Assembly (NCBI RefSeq): GCF_002979915.1
Contig: NZ_PCQA01000003.1
Span: 62,001-126,000 of the forward strand
Length of the DNA: 64,000 bases
Reading direction: 5' to 3'
Source of the DNA: Arthrobacter sp. MYb213
GTDB lineage: Bacteria > Actinomycetota > Actinomycetes > Actinomycetales > Micrococcaceae
The notes below the pieces were generated by a model. That model was not told where the DNA came from and ran no database searches. It saw only the letters and a program-made list of their open reading frames with translations. A program made the position numbers and the translations under genes. Positions within the stretch are counted from its first letter, which is position 1; each line of letters begins with the position of its first letter. Positions 23,778 to 55,834 of this stretch are shown here, one piece after another.

Positions 23778-23940
23778 AGAGTGTGAGATATCCACAGTAT
23801 TAACAGGTTATCCACACACCTTGTGGAGAACGTTCTTATTTACTTGTTCACAACTTTATCCACAGGTGGGGATAAGGTGAGTGGGGACTGTACAAACTAT
23901 TCATTAACCCAAGTCAGTGTCGATTGCATGTTGTTGAATG

Positions 23941-23962
23941 ACATGGTTGTAAGTTATTAACA
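23941..23962 (+). repeat. 22-bp direct repeat, copy 1, next to a DnaA box
   Basis: Identical to 24206-24227. It starts ACATGGTTGTAAG, ends GTTATTAACA, and is followed one or two bases later by TGTGGAT, a reversed DnaA box. The GTTATTAAC core is an AT-rich palindrome. Confidence 0.9.
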
Positions 23963-24205
23963 CTGTGGATTACGCGTGTGGACATCTTCTTTATGGTGAC
24001 TCAGTCGACAGATATCGGAGATTCGTTTAAAAATTCGAACAACTAAATGGATCGACGCAGAGCCTCGGAATAGAGCTATCTACAGGGCCTGTTTAAAAGT
24101 TATCCACAATTGTGGGTAAAGCTGTGAGTATTCGATGCCGGAAGTGGCATATCCACGAAATCAAGGGCATCCGAGGGGTGTCCTGTCGCTACCCAGAAGA
24201 GAGTT

Positions 24206-24227
24206 ACATGGTTGTAAGTTATTAACA
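24206..24227 (+). repeat. 22-bp direct repeat, copy 2, next to two perfect DnaA boxes
   Basis: Exact copy of 23941-23962, 265 bp away, followed by perfect minus-strand boxes at 24229-24237 and 24242-24250. Conservation of repeat plus box suggests a functional unit. Confidence 0.9.
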
Positions 24228-24271
24228 GTGTGGATAATACTTGTGGATAACTAGACGCAGAAGAGTTCGAA

Positions 24272-46036: not shown

Positions 46037-46052
46037 TGTTTCACGTGAAACA
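46037..46052. other. parS site 1, upstream of parA
   Basis: Perfect TGTTTCACGTGAAACA, 57 bp before the proposed parA start. It is the ParB-binding centromere sequence conserved across bacteria and may also lie in the parA promoter. Confidence 0.95.
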
Positions 46053-46108
46053 CGAGCAAAGTATTCGTGAAAATTGCACGCATCAAATTACGAGGAGGAG
46101 TTTCACCT

Positions 46109-47038
46109 TTGTCCAAGGCTAAAGGTTCGTCGAGTAACATTTTTGACTTCAATGACTCTTCTTCGCCCCTTGCTAGTCAATTGGCTAGCGAGCACCGCCG
46201 ACGCGAAGCAATTTCTGAGCGTAAGGTCCCCACTCCTCCGAAGACTCGTTACTTGACGATTTCGAATCAGAAGGGTGGCGTCGGTAAAACGACGACTACG
46301 GTCAACTTGGCAGCTGCGTTGGCAAAGAGTGGTTTGAACGTTCTTGTGATCGATATTGATCCACAGGGTAATGCGTCAACTGCGCTCGGCATCGAGCATC
46401 ATTCGGAAGTGGATAGCATCTACGATGTTCTAATCAACGATCTTCCGTTGGCTGACGTCATTGCGACATGCCCCGAACTACCTTTATTGCAAGTTGCACC
46501 TGCAACGATTCACCTGGCCGGCGCTGAGATTGAGTTGGTTTCTCTGGTTGCCCGTGAACAGCGGTTGCAGCGAGCATTGGACGACTACGCGCGAACCCGG
46601 CAGCGTGAGGGCCTCCCTCGGTTGGATTATGTTTTCATTGACTGTCCACCGAGCCTTGGCCTGTTGACGGTTAATGCGTTTGTTGCTGCCAGAGAGGTTC
46701 TGATTCCGATCCAGTGCGAATACTACGCGTTGGAAGGTCTTAGCCAGTTGTTGAAGAACATCGAGATGATTCAGAAACACTTGAATTCAAAGTTGACTGT
46801 ATCTACGATACTGCTGACTATGTATGACGGACGAACGAACCTTGCGGCTCAAGTTGCTAACGAAGTCCGAGAACATTTTCCTGAGCAAGTTTTAGGGGCC
46901 GTGATTCCACGCTCCGTGCGTATCTCTGAAGCACCTAGTTACCAACAAACGGTTATTACTTACGATCCAAGCTCTACGGGTGCTCTGTCTTACATGGAAG
47001 CAGCCATAGAGATTGCGGAAAGAGCCGTTCGAGCCTAA
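46109..47038 (+). CDS. parA: Chromosome partitioning ATPase ParA
   Basis: 309 residues from TTG 46109, chosen because a very strong AGGAGGAG lies 9 nt upstream; a GTG at 46067 has no such site. Deviant Walker A KGGVGKTTTTVNLA near residue 50, then DIDPQGNAST and the Walker B-like DYVFIDCPPSLGLL. It is the ATP-driven DNA-binding partner of ParB for segregation of origins. The N-terminal 45 residues are variable and probably disordered. Confidence 0.94.
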   Translation: MSKAKGSSSNIFDFNDSSSPLASQLASEHRRREAISERKVPTPPKTRYLTISNQKGGVGKTTTTVNLAAALAKSGLNVLVIDIDPQGNASTALGIEHHSEVDSIYDVLINDLPLADVIATCPELPLLQVAPATIHLAGAEIELVSLVAREQRLQRALDDYARTRQREGLPRLDYVFIDCPPSLGLLTVNAFVAAREVLIPIQCEYYALEGLSQLLKNIEMIQKHLNSKLTVSTILLTMYDGRTNLAAQVANEVREHFPEQVLGAVIPRSVRISEAPSYQQTVITYDPSSTGALSYMEAAIEIAERAVRA

Positions 47039-47080: not shown

Positions 47081-47219
47081 ATTGTTGTTTAACAAGGAAA
47101 TTTTCCATTTATAGTCTTCGGAACTTCTTGCAATCAAGGCAAGCAACATCCCCCTTGTTTGTCGAGTAAACAGTAGACTAGTCGTGGCTGAGTATTTGGA
47201 TGAGAAGGAGTGCCGGCAA

Positions 47220-48383
47220 ATGGCTGAGAAAAAGCGTGGCTTAGGCAGGGGACTAGGTGCACTGATTTCCAGTTCGCCGACAGGCGCTGTACCTGAGACT
47301 GTCGAGGATGTTTCACGTGAAACATCCTCTCCCGAACCGCAGATAAGTAAGACTAAATCTGCACGTCCTGTGGATATGTTCTTTGAACCAGGACGAAAAT
47401 CTTCGTCTTCTGCGACTAAAGTTACCCCTGCAAAAAACGGTAAAAAGACTCGTGCGGCGATGCCAGGTTTAACTTCGTCTGTGGCTCCAAGAGAAACCGA
47501 ACCAGCTGTCGCGACGAAGGCGACTACTCCTAATATTGAGGAATCTTCTTCAGGTTTAGTTGAAGTTCCTGGCGCAAGTTTTGCAGAGCTCAATGTTAAC
47601 GATATTCATCCGAATCGTAAGCAGCCTAGAACTAACTTCGATCAGGAACAGCTGGATGAACTCATCCACTCGATCCGTGAAATTGGATTGCTTCAGCCGA
47701 TCGTTGTTCGGCCTTCGAGAGAAGAAAATGAGGCTCCATACGAACTGGTTATGGGTGAGCGTCGTTGGCGCGCTACTCAAGCCGCCGGCTTGTCTACGAT
47801 TCCAGCCATTATTCGCGACACTCAAGATAACGATCTTTTACGTGACGCACTGCTGGAGAATCTACATCGTTCGGAACTTAACCCGCTAGAAGAAGCGGCT
47901 GCATACCAGCAGTTACTCGAAGAGTTTAACTGCACACAAGAGGTTTTATCTGACCGTATCGGTCGTTCGCGGTCTCAGATTTCGAACACCATTCGGCTCA
48001 TGAAGCTACCAGCTTTGGTTCAGCGGCGAGTTGCGGCGGGAGTGCTCTCCGCGGGTCACGCGAGAGCTTTGCTAGGCCTGTCCAATGGGGAAGCCATAGA
48101 ACAGCTAGCTCAACGCATCGTTAATGAGGGCCTGTCGGTTCGCGCTACGGAAGAGGCTGTAGCGCTCAGTGGGGACAAGCCGGTCAAGAAGAATGCCAAA
48201 CCACGTGAAACTCAGCGGAATGAACGGCTGGATTTCCTAGCTACTTCTCTCGCGGATCGACTGGACACTAGTGTAAAGATCCAGTTGGGCTCACGAAAAG
48301 GTAAAGTCAGCATCGAATTTGCCTCGGTTGAGGACCTCAATAGAATCATGGAAGTTCTAGATCCGGACCTTAAAAAGTCTTAG
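47220..48383 (+). CDS. parB: Chromosome partitioning protein ParB
   Basis: 387 residues from ATG 47220, with AAGGAG 9 nt upstream; an in-frame GTG at 47184 is less likely. The N-terminus has ParA-interaction Arg-rich [12 protein letters not shown], then a linker. The ParB/CTP-binding fold contains LQPIVVRPS and [12 protein letters not shown], the helix-turn-helix [27 protein letters not shown] reads parS, and a C-terminal dimer domain follows. CTP-dependent sliding clamp. A parS sits inside this coding region, in the linker. Confidence 0.95.
47309..47324. other. parS site 2, inside the parB coding sequence
   Basis: Perfect TGTTTCACGTGAAACA within the codons for DVSRETS in the low-constraint ParB linker. 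Some actinobacteria keep a parS inside or beside parB. Confidence 0.95.
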
Positions 48384-48392
48384 GGTTCAGCT

Positions 48393-48436
48393 AATAATGA
48401 TGGTCATGTTTCACGTGAAACATGACCATCATTATT
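48393..48436. terminator. 44-bp perfect palindrome with a central parS, at the parB 3' end
   Basis: The two 22-nt arms are exactly complementary and the parS TGTTTCACGTGAAACA (48407-48422) is its centre. It starts 10 bp after the parB stop. As RNA it could form a long hairpin, but there is no unpaired loop of usual size and only a short T-run, so termination is inferred. As DNA the palindrome may also extrude. Confidence 0.7.
48407..48422. other. parS site 3, in the parB terminator palindrome
   Basis: Perfect TGTTTCACGTGAAACA, the core of the 44-bp palindrome. Confidence 0.95.
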
Positions 48437-49458
48437 TAATACGGAGCTAGACACCAGCAAAGACGACTGGAGCAAGTTCGAGACGGCACCAATTGCTCGA
48501 GGGCTTCCTAGAGTCTGATAACGAACAGGAAAGCTCATAGAAATGCCCCCAGGGGGACATTGAGGCCTTTCTAAGCGAGGGGGAGACCTTCACACCTTCT
48601 CTGGCTTCTCTGACAGCCTGTAGGCCCGCTGTAGCGCGATACGGCTGCTCTAATCCATAATGCATGAGTCGTGGGTGGAATGTACCTTGATCGGGCTATC
48701 CGCTGAGACCGGCTTCGGGTAGCTCTTACTGACAGATTTACCGTTTCAAGACTTTTCACTGAGGTTCTCTCGTGGAGTCTGTCGTGTGCCGATGTTTTTC
48801 TTTCTGTTCTAGTCTGAATAAACGTATGCCCCCTACAGAGTAAATGGATATAAGAAGATGCTAGTTGCAATGATATGAATGGGTGCACCAGAAACTGCGA
48901 CTTCTCTTAACTGCACTGTTTCTTGTCGTTGACGAAATCCTCAAACGCTTCAGAGCCAGTTGCTATGGCATACCAGAGCCGCCACAATTCTCGTTCAGGG
49001 GATCATTATGACGGACATGATGGTCGTAGTTTGGAAGCAAGAACTTTCCACGGCGATGTTTCCGCAATAAAGGCTCATGCACAAAAATTCAGTCGTATGG
49101 CGCATCTGCCGGCCTCACCGCACATTCAGGCCGAAAGTATTGCAACGGTATCGACATTGCTAACGTGTCCGGGCGCCAGCAGGCTAGTCCGGTAGATCGT
49201 ACTGCGTTCCGAGGATGACCTACCGCCTCTCATCCCATACTTTCGCGATTCAACGACAGCACTCAGAAGGCATCAGATCCCTGAACAACCGTGTCGAACC
49301 CCTTGAAATAACAGCGTCATGGGAAAAGATGCTTGGCACGGGATATCCTAACTGCCCTGGCATTCCATCTAGGCCGCGCCAGATTGCATCCTTGCCTTGG
49401 ACGATTGTCTATTTGGTGTCCGGCGACCATCTACTAATGGGACTGTGCGGCAGCCATT

Positions 49459-50083
49459 AATATTGTGGTTCAGAGCCACCCGCCAAAAACGGAATTATTG
49501 ACTTCGAGAGCCACACAATATTCTCGTTCAGCGCCACTCTGTATGAACTCCTAACACCACGCCAGAACTCACATGACGAAAGAACCGAGACATACTCACC
49601 GGCACGAATGCGTAGCTCTCATTGGACTTCCAATCTTTCTGTAGGAAGCTTTAACTCTATTCAGCGCGGTGAGAATATCTCAGGGTATTCAATGAAGAGA
49701 CGATGTAGAGATCAGCGTTCCCAGGCAGCAGCAAACAAACCGTGGAGCGTTGTACGAAGGTATCTGAGCTTGGAACCAGAGAGCTAGACGAATAGGTCTA
49801 TGCCAACACGAACCTGAAGCTTCGGCCAGCAGTCCAGCCGAAAAGACGCACGGGACAACATGAGGCACCTGCGGTTGCCGTCATATGCATGGACCTATTC
49901 GTCCACAACGCACGCTGAATGGACACCGATGGTAATAATATTCGAGCTGCGTGCGCGACTTCCGAAAAGGAAGAGCGGATTATCATCAAGATGAAATGTA
50001 TGTTCAAGACCGCTGACTACAAGGAAAGGTGACCCCTGGTTCTGAACGAGAATATTGGGTGGCTCTGAAACCTTCGAATATTC
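49459..50083. mobile_element. Degenerate insertion-element remnant, copy A
   Basis: About 625 bp. The left end has AATATTGTGGTTCAGAGCCACC and the right end GGGTGGCTCTGAAACC; these are near reverse complements. Sub-terminal CAATATTCTCGTTCAG on the left pairs with CTGAACGAGAATATTG on the right. Such double end-repeats occur in IS21-type elements, but no transposase frame remains, so a family is only suggested. It is broadly similar along its length to copy B by eye. Confidence 0.6.
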
Positions 50084-51149
50084 AGTGACGTGTGTTGCAG
50101 GGACATCGTTGGCGTCTTGGTTTCTGACAAAATCTCATCACGCGAATCCGTTCGTGATTGCGTGAACAGGCACCCTGAGGATATTGACCAGAATAATGAT
50201 GGCCTATTAAATGAGTATGGCCGATACTGAGGTTGTTGCCAAATGTCCTGTGGTTCCTGCGACGTCGGGTCGACGGACTAGAGTCTGTATGAGCTTTGGG
50301 CCGATGCCATCTTTTCAGTGCGATGTTCTGTACAGCCTTCCGAATGAATTCGACGCGAAGAACGAACAACTGTGATCTGGGCAGGCTCTTGTGCCGTGGA
50401 ACGACCGTAACAGATTGTAAGGTGGCTCCACCGGTGAGTATCAAGCGGTTCTGAGACTGGATATCGCTGTACTCAGCGAATGGCTCAAAATTGAAATATT
50501 GGTCGCTCTCAAAGAGGCAAATGATCAGAGTCCTTGAACATCGTAATGCAATAACCCGAACAATCGGACCAGCTTACCCGTTCGTGGCAGTGACGATATA
50601 ACTGACGGGTATGCTTCATATCGCTGTGAACCAGTTCTGCTCTGGAACCATCAGAGGACTAAACGCGTGAACATTCGGAGCAGGCATCCTCTCGCTTGAA
50701 GCGCTACCCCGGCAGGGTCCCTGCCCAGGGCTACCGAACATCATGCCCGGAAGACCCGAAGGATAAAACTGAGACTATTGGGTGACGCTCTATGCCGTAC
50801 CAGCTGGCTATTAATCCGCCGACTAATCACTACTAGCCTGGTGCAGTGTCAGCTCCATCTCTGTTCTTGTGATCAAGTAGTTGGGTGATGATTCCAAAGA
50901 GAAGGGGGACGATCCCCACTGATCATATGTTCAGCAAAGAACCACTGTGGATTTGCTCCTTTGTATTTTCTACTTGTTCGCTACTGGTCAACCCTCTGCG
51001 GGAATCAATGGAGAAAAGTGCAGGATGAAGGTTCACTGGGGGAGGAGTGTCATTCACATAATAAATCTTCCTTCGTGAACGGGAGCTGCTTAGCGCTACT
51101 AGTAGAGTCCCTGTCATTCTCGTGGCCCCATACCGACTGTGTTTGTCTC

Positions 51150-51165
51150 TGTTTCACGTGAAACA
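51150..51165. other. parS site 4
   Basis: Perfect TGTTTCACGTGAAACA in the gene-free region, between the two repeat copies. Confidence 0.95.
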
Positions 51166-51566
51166 TATCTTCGACGTAGTCTCAGTCCTTTTGTGGGTGG
51201 CGGGAAATCTGTTCAATTATGGATCAGATCAGTTCTACACGGAACATGGAATTAGCAGCAGAAAAGCTCGGAAATACTTAAATACGTACTACTCAATGTC
51301 TTGCCTAGCCTGTGGAGGTGTTTGGACGTCTCGGTACTTGGCAGCTGGATCCGTAGTTGATGTTGACTGAGGAGGAGGTTTACGTAAGGAACTACTAATC
51401 GTTGGTGAGAGCCCTTCAAAATCAAAAATCTTGAACGACGAGATTGGAACCTGTTTGGCCTTCATACAGACGGGAATAACAAAACCCTGTCCATTCATAC
51501 TTACCATTCCGCGTGTAATAACGTCTGGAAAGCTCTGTATGAATTTTTGACACTTTGGGAACCGTC

Positions 51567-52185
51567 AATATTGTGGCTCAGAGCCACCGGCCAGAAACGA
51601 CGTTACCGACACTGAGAGCCACTCAGTCTTCTCGTCCAGCGGCGCGTAGTATGAACTCCTCCCAGCATCCGAGAACTCACGTGACGAAAGAAGCGAGACG
51701 TTTCACCGGCACGAACGCGCAGCTCTCATTGGTCTTCACCCTCTGCCGGACGCTTCAATCCCATTCGGCGAGTTGAGAATATCTCCAAGTCTTCAATGAT
51801 GAGACAGCGTAGAGTCCAGCGTTCACAGACAACAAGCAAACCGTGGACAGCTGTACGGGGGTATCCGGGCTGGGATCCAAAATGCTAGACGTATAGGTCA
51901 AATCAAACAAGAACCTAAAGTTTCGGCCATCGGCCCGGCCGAAAAGATGCACTGGAAACCACGGCGCAGTTGCGGTGGCCGGCATATGCATAGACATAAT
52001 CGTCCGTAACGCGTCTTGGTTAGCCACCGATGGGAATACTATGCGTGCTGCGTGCGCAACTTCCATGAAGGAAGAGCAGATTATCATCAGGGTGAAATGC
52101 ATGTTCAGAGTCGTCGGCTGAAAAGGCAGCTGCCCCGTGGCGCTGAACGAGAATACTGGGTGGCTATGAAACCTTCGAATATTCA
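51567..52185. mobile_element. Degenerate insertion-element remnant, copy B
   Basis: About 619 bp with ends AATATTGTGGCTCAGAGCCACC on the left and GGGTGGCTATGAAACC on the right, plus sub-terminal GCTGAACGAGAATACTGG. The order of shared blocks matches copy A (for example GTATGAACTCC, GACGAAAGAA, ACCGGCACGAA and AGATTATCATCA). Both copies are open-frame free, so they may be internally deleted, non-autonomous elements that moved before decaying. Confidence 0.6.
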
Positions 52186-53848
52186 CTGAACAAGGGACCA
52201 CTCTGTTGGGGTACGACAATACTTGAATGTTGGAAATCAAGATTGTGAGTTCACAGAGTCTCAACCTCAGAGACTCAACGCCAGGGGGGATTGGCATGTG
52301 CTAATAGATAAGTGGTCATCGTGTTGAAGACTAACGACAGTACTAAGAACCAAAGGGAATACTACAGAACTGCGTCGGCATAATTTTCTGACGTTCCTGA
52401 GGTGAACGCTGAACAATTCTCCTGCGGCCTATTTACTCCCGAGATCAGTACGCCCGCCCAAAAGGTCACTGGTGAGCTCTGAGAAGCCGTGCAGTCGAAG
52501 ATACAGGGTAACCGGGCATTGGGTCTGTCTTCGGCTGGTGTTATGACTGCAGCACTGTATTAACGCGCGTAGAAGAGTCGATAGATTTGATAATCGCGAG
52601 CAGCATAGCTTGGAACCGTGTCAGGGCTGAAGCCGTCGAAGTTACCACAGGGGTGAAACTTACCCCTAGAAATAATCGGTACTCCGTCGCTTTCATCGAA
52701 GTGTCCTAGCGCAGCCAGTGAGACATCAAGGATTGGAACAGGATTGCAGCCTACCATTTGCCGTCAACGGTTCAGTCACTGTTCAACGACTTTGGTATTT
52801 GCATTTAGGCGCTGGTTTTCGCTCTCGATACAGATCTTTTGTGAGTGGTTGTGAGCATGTTGTGTCGGCGTGGCGATTGGGACCAGTCCGCAGGGGTCTA
52901 GGCCCAGACGTGAATACTGCGCGCACGATTGTGCTGTCCATCGATGCATTGCGAGGTTCCAAGTGTTCCACGAGCATTAGGTGGAGCTCGAAGATGGGCA
53001 GTAGCTCGCAACTGCTATCTCGATGTGTGCCATGTACCTGTGAAAGGGGAGTTGTATATGGTTCCCAAGAACGCTCCGCGTAGAGCCCAGCGAATATAAT
53101 CCGGTTTTCAGGTGGTGCCCTACGACGGTAATGTCATTGGCCCCCGACCAGGAAAATATCCAGGCTGTTCCCTAGATTTTCTTGGCTGTTGGTCACAGGT
53201 CAGCGCCCAAGGCATCATGGCCTGAACACGAAGAGCAGTTAGAGGGTGACCTTGAAATGATGGCACCTGACAGCTGCAGCGAGTTGAAATCTATTTTGGT
53301 GAAAACCTGGATCTTGCCATGTAGGTTTTGACTCCAATCCACTGGTCGAAACTGATTTCGCGGTTTTTTCTAATCTAGTCCGTCAGTGAATACAGCGTGG
53401 GTAATATTGGGGTGAAGCTTGAGGAAGATGCTCGTTGGTCGCGTAGGCACAACTGGATGTCTATAACCAGGAGAGTCACCGTAAAGATCTGCTCGCTATG
53501 TCCGACTACGAACTAGTTAAGTTGGTCTTGAGTTCGTATCCGAAGGCAGTGGACGGTCACTGAAAAGCCTGAGTCCAGCGTCGATTTAGGGCCAAAGGAT
53601 CGCTGATTAAGGAAAATGGGACTATGGAACCTGCAAGATATAGTCTTCCCAAAAGTCCACTGAGTCCTGTGCAGGCAAAAAGGTGCACACTTTCATTCAC
53701 CTAATTCCGCTTGATCGCACGTGTGGTTTACCGAAAGCCAACAGAGGAGTCTTGACCGCCAGCGAGAGAATGTTGAAACCTCCGAGCCTATGTCCGCCCA
53801 TATACCCGGAGCGTTGTTATGGACTGCTAGATGGTGGTACGCCGATAG

Positions 53849-53890
53849 CCTGAAGCCTGAAGCCTGAAGCCTGAAGCCTGAAACCTGAAG
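53849..53890 (+). repeat. 7-bp tandem repeat, six copies
   Basis: Six CCTGAAG units, the fifth being CCTGAAA, about 160 bp before parS site 5. Such slippage-prone tracts are uncommon in this type of genome. Confidence 0.9.
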
Positions 53891-54051
53891 GCCAATATTG
53901 ATTGGTCGTTATTGGCTGCTAGTCGCTCCCATGAATGCGAAGGTATTTCGGTTCTGCGACGATACTAGGAAAGCGTAATTGTTTAAAGATGCTGTAGCCG
54001 ATTTTTTGTTGCCCACTTCTTACTCTTGATACCGGTGGCACTTCGGGGGAC

Positions 54052-54067
54052 TGTTTCACGTGAAACA
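54052..54067. other. parS site 5
   Basis: Perfect TGTTTCACGTGAAACA in the gene-free region. Confidence 0.95.
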
Positions 54068-54130
54068 AACATCGGCCCGTTGGAGCGAGACGAAGCTTTA
54101 GTGCAAATTCGGTGCGGCTATCTCTTCCCA

Positions 54131-54146
54131 AGTTTCACGTGAAACA
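54131..54146. other. parS site 6 (one edge mismatch)
   Basis: AGTTTCACGTGAAACA, 79 bp from site 5 (start to start). The inner 14-mer GTTTCACGTGAAAC is intact, so ParB should bind. Confidence 0.9.
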
Positions 54147-55457
54147 TTCTGTGCGTATCTGATCGACGAAAAATTATCCTGGGTGAGTATCTGGAGCTAG
54201 AGAATCATCCAGTATTTCCGAGCAATGGCGCTGCCCTGTTATTCATTCACTACCGACATCCATGCAATTCGATTCAGCGATGGTCCGAATATTCTGACGT
54301 CCAATCTGCGGCAGGACAATCGCGGACACGTGGACTTTCATATTGTCCACAGAGTCCGTTTCGAGGAGTAAATTATGTCCGAGTTAGAACTGATAACCTC
54401 GCTGCAGACAGCTCCGCCCCCTGAGATATTTGGATCGTCCAGATGGGTTCGCCACAGCAGGGGCCGATTCCGGGACCAAGATGTGGAACCGTATTCGGGT
54501 GGTTAGCCATCACCAGCTCGTTGGGTCCGCTAATCGCGATAGTTTCACCAACAGGCGTTCATTTTCGGTGGGTACGCAACTAGTAGAGAGGCTAAGCTCC
54601 GACGCGCTTAAATCATCCTGTGAGCCGATTGTAGTGGCTACTTCAAATCCATAAACCGTGTTCTGACAATGGATCGAAGTTACCCTTGTGGACCCAAGAC
54701 TCCAGGCCTGTTTAGAAGTTGAGGCTTTGCCAAAGAGAACTGTCGGCTTCTATTCCTTAGAGCCGAACTTTGGGGAAGCCATCACTTCTGCATAAGAGTC
54801 GCGTCCATCAAGTAATGCGTTAAAGACAACTCTGGACGGGAACTACCGTTCCAATGCCGATCAATAGCGGATGGTTACGAGCCGAGCCTGACCGATTAAA
54901 CTACAGCTGAAACGCACCGGTGGGAGACAAGAGCGCTGCGACCAGAGTAGGCGAGGACTATTCTTCATGGCTTCACAATGTCCAGTGTCAGCGTGAAACA
55001 GCGACACCAGATTGCGGATTTTTAGGACCGTCTATATCTGACAGATTTGGTTTCGTTCGCAGCTATCTGTCGAAAGGGTAGTGAGGTATTCAGAACTGTG
55101 GACCGCCGGGTGCCTTATTGAGCGGACAATAAATTCTGGCGATTCCAGCGGGGGAGCAGACCGATGAGATTGCGTGAGATTCGGGAGTCTAAAAATTGCA
55201 TCTAGCTGCCGCCATCTTTGAGTTCGACGGAGGGGAGTAACCTGTTGGGTACCTTTGGCATGCTGTTGTGGGGATGTGATTCTAGGGGGATGACTTGGAC
55301 TACTCAGATTTGGCGATTTTTTGATGGGGGCAGGGGATGACTCTCGAAATGAGAGAATATAAGAGTAATGAAATCAAAATACTTTGTTACCTTCTCAAAA
55401 GTAACAAATATTGATTCCCTGAGGTCATGACCATCACCGTGACCATGTGTAGGGATG

Positions 55458-55495
55458 AAAATAGGCGTTGAACTCGAAAGTTCAACGCCTATTTT
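55458..55495 (-). terminator. Terminator after trxA
   Basis: 17-nt perfect arms (AAAATAGGCGTTGAACT and AGTTCAACGCCTATTTT) with loop CGAA, 15 bp past the trxA stop. Its T-run faces the minus strand as required. Confidence 0.92.
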
Positions 55496-55510
55496 GGAAC
55501 AGCTGAGGAT

Positions 55511-55834
55511 TTACAGGTATTCAGCAAAATCCTTCTCGATGACAGCCTTTGGCTTGGCACCGATTGAGGTAGCTACGTGCTCGCCACCCTTGAAAACGTA
55601 TACAGCAGGAATACTGGTGATTCCGTACTTAGCAGCAATGCTCTGGTTCTCGTCAACGTTGATCTTTACGACATCAACCTTTGCGGCATGCTCTTCAGCA
55701 ATCTGATCCAGGATCGGACCAAGCTGGCGGCAAGGACCGCACCACTCTGCCCAGAAGTCGACGATGACTGGTTTTTCGGCATCCAGAACTTCTGCCTGGA
55801 AGGTTGCTTCAGTTACTGCCTTAGCGTTACTCAT
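55511..55834 (-). CDS. trxA: Thioredoxin
   Basis: 107 residues with active site WCGPCRQ near residue 30 and the cis-proline loop GITSIPAVYVF. Cytoplasmic disulfide reductant, re-reduced by TrxB encoded 26 bp upstream in the same direction. The trxB-trxA pair near parB is standard for the lineage. Confidence 0.97.
   Translation of the reverse strand: MSNAKAVTEATFQAEVLDAEKPVIVDFWAEWCGPCRQLGPILDQIAEEHAAKVDVVKINVDENQSIAAKYGITSIPAVYVFKGGEHVATSIGAKPKAVIEKDFAEYL

Follow-up and report, generated by a model that had tools for sequence, protein, structure and literature searches.

A gene-free, parS-bearing interval between parB and trxA in Glutamicibacter as a probable ParB-loading platform with recurrent IS21-family insertion

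What keeps several kilobases of a bacterial chromosome free of genes beside one of its segregation genes is the question raised by a 64,000-nucleotide stretch (hereafter the window) from Arthrobacter sp. MYb213 (NCBI RefSeq assembly GCF_002979915.1, contig NZ_PCQA01000003.1, positions 62,001 to 126,000), in which the partitioning genes parA and parB are followed by a long interval carrying copies of parS, the site at which ParB loads. A previous inspection of the letters alone, here called the sequence-only reading, had reported about 7 kb without a gene beside parB and offered two explanations, a centromeric landing pad and a graveyard of mobile elements. The empty interval proved real, since coding, Pfam and Rfam tests were all negative between 48384 and 55510, and the two explanations both hold in part. 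With moderate confidence we interpret the interval, from its sequence, as a dedicated non-coding centromere, or ParB-loading platform. The source genome measures 3.79 Mb; among ParB proteins from named species the closest, at 97% identity, comes from Glutamicibacter ardleyensis, and the window is Glutamicibacter DNA with G. ardleyensis as its nearest named relative. The genes and the interval are the following:

46067 to 47038, forward strand: parA (the translation contains KGGVGKT; matches to ParA/RepA-type ATPase models stay under the cut-off)
47184 to 48383, forward strand: parB (TIGR00180 parB_part above cut-off)
48384 to 55510, no strand: gene-free interval between the convergent parB and trxA, 7127 bp (no coding signal, Pfam family or Rfam family)
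55458 to 55495, reverse strand: inverted repeat immediately after the trxA stop codon, probably the terminator of trxA (repeat search)
55511 to 55834, reverse strand: trxA, convergent with parB (TIGR01068 above cut-off)

ParB belongs to the ParABS systems, with 194.6 bits against TIGR00180 (cut-off 58.45); for ParA the best ParA/RepA/MinD model reaches an E value of 3e-30 and none exceeds its curated cut-off, and the protein is assigned on its KGGVGKT motif and the gene order parA-parB. The coding-potential and RNA-family checks that the sequence-only reading had suggested gave no coding signal in the interval, where the top codon-model score among 115 sliding 240-bp windows was 1.3, compared with more than 4.3 in 95% of the windows from known genes. 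A Pfam search of all six frames, with stops read as X, returned no family at E values up to 1, and Rfam returned a single match, below the gathering score, at the parB terminator palindrome; seven loci of the genus gave nothing at the Rfam gathering threshold. Across 400 kb of the same contig, where the coding fraction according to a simple gene caller is 0.85, the runner-up to the 7127-bp gap is a gene-free run of 1446 bp, and these control runs are upper bounds because the caller misses real genes: trxB was left as a 1095-bp run, and an open DDE_Tnp_1 frame in the gap of another locus (L080) was overlooked. The absence of a gene call in other gaps is accordingly weaker evidence than the tests on the window's own gap. 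An assembly error, which had also been considered, is unlikely, since 17 other assemblies of the genus show the same arrangement, four of them (G003, G004, G007 and G015) as single contigs. The gap also contains, at 53847-53895, a short tandem array of AGCCTGA units.

The parS sites set this locus apart from the rest of the genome. They are listed below without strand, and counts for the genus refer to 18 Glutamicibacter loci, the window included:

46037 to 46052, no strand: parS directly upstream of the parA start, exact; a similarly placed site in 18 of 18 genus loci
47309 to 47324, no strand: parS within the parB reading frame, exact; a similarly placed site in 18 of 18 genus loci
48407 to 48422, no strand: parS in the tip of the terminator-like hairpin that follows parB, exact
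51150 to 51165, no strand: parS within the gap, exact; neighbourhood 87% identical to one with a parS in L074
54052 to 54067, no strand: parS within the gap, first of a distal pair, exact
54131 to 54146, no strand: parS within the gap, second of the distal pair, one mismatch in 16

With up to three mismatches allowed, these six are found in the window against 0.25 expected, and the 14-bp core occurs six times in the 3.79-Mb genome, every time in the locus formed by parA, parB and the gap. The six exact cores lie 3.6-11.7 kb from the dnaA start and are near the origin by this distance, measured to dnaA. Likewise, the number of exact cores in the whole genome equals the number in the parB locus in all 18 Glutamicibacter genomes, and the site at the parA start and the site in parB each occur once per locus. 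The parS scan agreed with the sequence-only reading that three of six sites lie in 48437-55457; a fourth stops 15 bp short of that interval, in the parB terminator palindrome. Even spacing of parS was rejected for Glutamicibacter, where the sites are clumped, and 26 Arthrobacter-type loci display only a tendency to evenness (mean percentile of the coefficient of variation (CV) of spacing, 0.27). A constant distance of about 2 kb from the last parS to trxA in Glutamicibacter is not claimed, given a CV of 0.36 compared with 0.39 for the distance from parB to the last parS; the former was better only after removal of outliers.

The site that follows the parB stop is embedded in a further structure:

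48393 to 48436, forward strand: 44-bp palindrome without mismatches and with parS in its middle, predicted terminator-like hairpin of parB (z -8.5; covariation)

A palindrome with the parS core at its centre follows the parB stop in 17 of the 18 genus loci, with mismatched arms in some; in the exception, L080, the palindrome lacks parS, which comes after it. The arms vary among species yet remain complementary, with two-sided changes in 15 of 18 pairs, a value reached in none of 500 shuffles, and shifting the partner abolishes the complementarity. The median exact half-arm is 17.5 at 16 hairpin parS sites vs 8 at 65 gap sites. Because the palindrome is centred on parS, its arms covary and its half-arms exceed those of the gap sites, parS appears to double as the top of a predicted parB terminator-like hairpin.

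The arrangement is retained in every Glutamicibacter genome compared, while its sequence is not. All 18 genomes have a parB-trxA gap of 3484-8191 bp with three to six parS sites, so that none has been lost despite sequence drift, and the GC content of the gap is below that of its flanks in every locus. Gene calls are absent from 16 of the 18 gaps, the exceptions being L083, which holds an IS21 element, and L080, with two small calls in addition to its open DDE_Tnp_1 frame. Gap identity was lower than identity at fourfold degenerate sites in 10 of 12 genus pairs: in the three that align well the values were 0.675 vs 0.806, 0.704 vs 0.732 and 0.894 vs 0.912, and the remaining pairs are mostly near the floor of alignment, one of them with 0.857 at fourfold sites and 0.577 in the gap. 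Fourfold identity falls to 0.43 across the compared pairs. With gap identity below that of fourfold sites, there is no sign of purifying selection on the spacer, which drifts, where it can be aligned, at about the fourfold-site rate or faster. Blocks of at least 60 bp common to non-sister gaps comprise only IS21 sequence, both gap edges and parS neighbourhoods, to which a lower threshold adds one weak stretch between L084 and L087; six-frame Pfam searches of 16 further gaps found IS21-type domains, one DDE_Tnp_1 and two marginal matches (DUF681 and HTH_23). L086, a near copy of L085, was omitted from the k-mer scan and the Pfam batches. The alignment across relatives proposed by the sequence-only reading has thus given the drifting sequence in a retained, parS-bearing gap that it had named as support for a spacer role, with a length that varies 2.4-fold.

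Part of this length derives from mobile DNA, of which the window's gap contains the following:

49452 to 50085, no strand: non-autonomous IS21-family remnant 1 (ends approximate; end motif and similarity to an intact copy)
50482 to 50522, no strand: additional IS21 end fragment (85% over 41 bp)
51536 to 52187, no strand: non-autonomous IS21-family remnant 2 (ends approximate; no counterpart at the corresponding position of G. ardleyensis)

The decayed repeat copies noticed earlier are these two remnants, of about 620-650 bp each and 77% identical to each other. Their repeated motif, GGTGGCTCTGAA, is one of the inner end repeats of an IS21-family element; an intact copy of this element lies in the G001 gap (L083, 8714-11019), where istA and istB are open and their products exceed the cut-offs of NF033546 and PF01695, respectively. 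Both window remnants carry this terminal repeat (with 0 and 1 mismatch) and are 73-94% identical to end segments of the intact copy; they are non-autonomous at most, because neither a six-frame Pfam search nor tblastn of IstA and IstB on the gap recognised istA or istB coding in them. The flanks of remnant 2 are 3 bp apart in G. ardleyensis, which holds two IS21 stretches of its own.

Relics of the IS21 group occur in 11 of the 18 genus gaps (two of these being the near-identical pair L085/L086) and other transposase relics in two. Gaps with IS21 relics measure 5.6-8.2 kb and the seven without them 3.5-5.3 kb, with no overlap; the relics account for only part of the length, since the latter still span several kilobases. 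Insertion appears to keep recurring in the gap, as indicated by the frequency of the relics, the lineage-specific stretches and the greater length of relic-bearing gaps. The end motif, at up to two mismatches, has 29 matches in 12 of the 18 genomes, and 20 of them fall in gaps, which make up 0.16% of the genomes; the matches are related and not independent, and this concentration may reflect targeting of the ParB complex or retention at a tolerant site. When IS21 copies from outside the gaps were used as queries, three matched relics in 8 to 11 gaps each (jointly in the same 11), and a fourth, of another IS21 group, matched L083 only. Of 16 other transposase loci, hand-picked by an rve or DDE_Tnp_1 match, seven of them from G001 and the DDE_Tnp_1 frame of L080 not among them, four matched, all in L087. 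The listed genus matches amount to 127 for rve and 37 for DDE_Tnp_1, with one of each inside a gap. Confinement of IS21 to centromeres was rejected, as IstA relatives are present elsewhere: 13 matches at E values of at most 1e-30 are spread over 6 of the 18 genomes, a single one of them lies in a gap, and some belong to other IS21 groups.

Comparable intervals exist beyond the genus. The gaps of 26 Arthrobacter/Pseudarthrobacter loci measure 3865-8762 bp and carry 6-10 parS sites each, and 25 of them are without a gene call; the exception, in Arthrobacter sp. Leaf337 (L050), contains an IS21 element with open istA and istB, its IstA 63% identical to that of L083. At most 3% of the gap is shared in all but 6 of 325 pairs of these loci. 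Among 60 further loci from the same family and other families of the order, 59 of which were measurable (L191 gave no interval), multi-kilobase gene-free stretches with parS were found in the coded genera g7, g8, g10, g20 and g23, partly in g30 and g31, and in two other families, f6 (two of five loci) and f10 (five loci, 2.7-5.4 kb, 1-10 parS). In family f6, L121 and L172 have 11-12 parS sites in a 3-kb gene-free stretch after parB that is absent from three loci of the same genus code. In other relatives the parB-trxA interval is occupied by genes and has few parS sites or none. Across 106 loci, gene-free length correlates with parS number (rho 0.71, without correction for relatedness). In a rapidly built ParA-ParB-TrxB tree with many open forks, drawn from named loci outside Glutamicibacter (11 of 32) and from genus loci (8 of 18) among others, 33 of the 78 scored loci bear the label of a desert (at least 2500 bp and at least three parS) with at least 10 changes, threshold noise included; L117 and L189 fall short through small gene calls. 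L045 and L058 were dropped (trxA outside the stretch), L034-L041 and L047 duplicate genus loci and were excluded from the counts, and L042, identical in sequence to L100, was retained with it among the 106 loci and in the tree.

An origin of replication inside the window's gap was rejected, since the gap has one DnaA box (one mismatch, at 54343) and no cluster; the Glutamicibacter gaps are equally without a DnaA cluster, and the 17 scanned contain a single exact TTRTCCACA box. The DnaA-box clusters of the window lie around dnaA and at 23788-24242. The latter is the densest, about 17 kb from dnaA, intergenic and not at dnaA-dnaN, and its neighbours, named by eye, are an ArgO/LysE-type exporter-like gene and a rhomboid protease-like gene. 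In Arthrobacter-type gaps, further conserved blocks were DnaA-box arrays (among the matches of three loci examined). Of the 26 Arthrobacter/Pseudarthrobacter loci (L043-L073), 25 match the first array in at least 24 of its 31 positions and L044 matches it in 22. In those 25 loci, which are related and not independent cases, the array is followed by a parS at 116-118 bp (6 loci), 127-129 bp (11) or 137-140 bp (8), in bins about 11 bp apart, and the sequence in between shows no more similarity than shuffled controls do (median 0.718 vs 0.722, 296 pairs, lenient aligner). Judged from these distances, the Arthrobacter arrays appear to sit in helical phase with a parS. A second group of DnaA boxes comes next, at 336-437. 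In two g10 loci the array is present but no parS lies at such a distance, and the same holds for weaker matches (20-25 of 31) in g7, g20 and f10; the array is absent from the Glutamicibacter gaps scanned.

ParB clamps load at parS and then slide. According to the text available for PMC6238139, promoter regions cause dips in ParB binding or impede ParB, while active transcription did not, and the available part of PMC7022226 describes that genes near parS can be repressed by ParB. A gene-free stretch would spare ParB the hindrance by promoters and spare genes the repression. We propose that ParB would load at every parS of the locus, whether beside parA, within parB, in the parB terminator or in the gap itself, and would spread as clamps over DNA that has no genes and hence few fixed promoter complexes. 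The nucleoprotein platform formed in this way would serve ParA-driven segregation and probably the loading of SMC. Selection would maintain the parS sites, keep genes out and preserve a length of at least a few kilobases, leaving the spacer sequence free to drift, and IS21-family elements would insert often, lengthen the gap and decay.

The sequence-only reading's alternative of a graveyard, in which a tolerant site collects decaying, mostly IS21-family DNA that has no function between the parS sites, draws on the relics in 11 gaps, on the greater length of the gaps that bear them, on the IS21 stretches that the window and G. ardleyensis each have and the other lacks, and on the finding that the long sequences shared by non-sister gaps are IS21, edges and parS neighbourhoods, plus the weak L084/L087 stretch. 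We nevertheless regard it as rather unlikely, as the IS21-free gaps still span 3.5-5.3 kb (L087 among them holds a relic of another insertion sequence), only one of the 26 Arthrobacter-type gaps (L050) has IS21 relics, yet these gaps are 3.9-8.8 kb long, and a purposeless stretch, under the deletion bias generally assumed, would be expected to shrink over a divergence that takes fourfold identity to 0.43. It is improbable that exclusion alone operates, with ParB spreading silencing or disturbing genes so that none establish and the length itself having no function: the reported ParB repression near parS (PMC7022226, in the part available) and the scarcity or absence of parS in most other sampled families with genes between parB and trxA fit this idea, but it would not by itself retain several kilobases in all 18 species, parS sites lie at parA and inside parB, genes that must be expressed, and g24, g29 and g31 carry genes farther along the interval beside parS-bearing stretches. 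Very improbable is a hidden RNA gene or other replication element. The conserved DnaA-box array of Arthrobacter-type gaps means that elements other than parS can occupy such gaps; against this stand the absence of any Rfam family in the window's gap (the sub-threshold match at the terminator palindrome aside) or in the seven genus loci, the restriction of conserved genus-gap blocks to parS, edges, IS21 and one weak pairwise match, and the single exact DnaA box in the 17 genus gaps scanned.

The ParB-platform interpretation has several observations to contend with. Two of the six window sites lie at or in genes, so gene-free surroundings are unnecessary for a parS. The window's gap, examined with a shuffle control, shows no depletion of promoters, with 8 promoter-like sites vs 7.1 +/- 2.6 in shuffles. 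The length in the genus tracks IS21 content, and the omissions of the gene caller weaken the case. Some Micrococcaceae have parB 79-130 bp from trxA and more parS sites upstream, which makes the spacer a feature of certain lineages that others can do without; parB directly beside trxA with unchanged segregation had been named beforehand as a refuting finding, and the first half of it applies to these relatives and to none of the 18 Glutamicibacter genomes. L124 (family f9) lacks both gene calls and parS over 2373 bp, and the correlation of length with parS number is weakened because a longer gap offers more room for parS. What stands of the landing pad is a parS-bearing gap kept in 18 of 18 loci as its sequence drifts; the variable length and the relatives without a spacer do not fit it. 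What stands of the graveyard is the frequency of relics, and the relic-free gaps do not fit.

Usually, parS is treated as a short site scattered among genes. An open-access full-text literature search, with subscription literature outside its scope, found no paper recognisably about gene-free parS regions. A multi-kilobase gap that is kept with its parS in the 18 species examined of one genus, and recurs in other lineages, would imply a role for the DNA between the sites as well. Natural long and short variants are available for testing how ParB spreads, how SMC is loaded and what genes close to a centromere cost, and the IS21 relics for testing the ability of a transposon to target such a bacterial centromere. 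It can tentatively be speculated that the interval is a counterpart of a regional centromere, a drifting gene-free ParB platform kept for its emptiness and length, a preferred target of one IS21 group and, in Arthrobacter, fused with a DnaA-binding array in helical register with parS, which would link the replication initiator and the centromere.

Eukaryotic regional centromeres are gene-poor, with rapidly drifting sequence, a retained function and a particular group of resident transposons. The window resembles them, by analogy only, in being gene-poor, drifting and populated by transposons, and differs in that short defined binding sites fix its place, with no evidence of epigenetic specification. 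With the IS21 family (IstA/IstB), the window copies share the end repeats of the intact G001 (L083) copy, and they differ in lacking recognisable istA/istB coding. The mycobacterial par locus has parA-parB in the same jag-gidB neighbourhood and the same parS consensus; unlike the window, it has two parS sites, both upstream of parB, with none further in those chromosomes, as stated in the available part of PMC2346475. The ParABS region of Corynebacterium glutamicum shares with the window the 16-bp parS consensus, the clustering near the origin and the expected ParB nucleation zones; its ten parS sites, nine of them intergenic, are spread among genes over 35 kb in the account available from PMC7083940, whereas the downstream parS sites of the window all lie within one multi-kilobase gene-free stretch.

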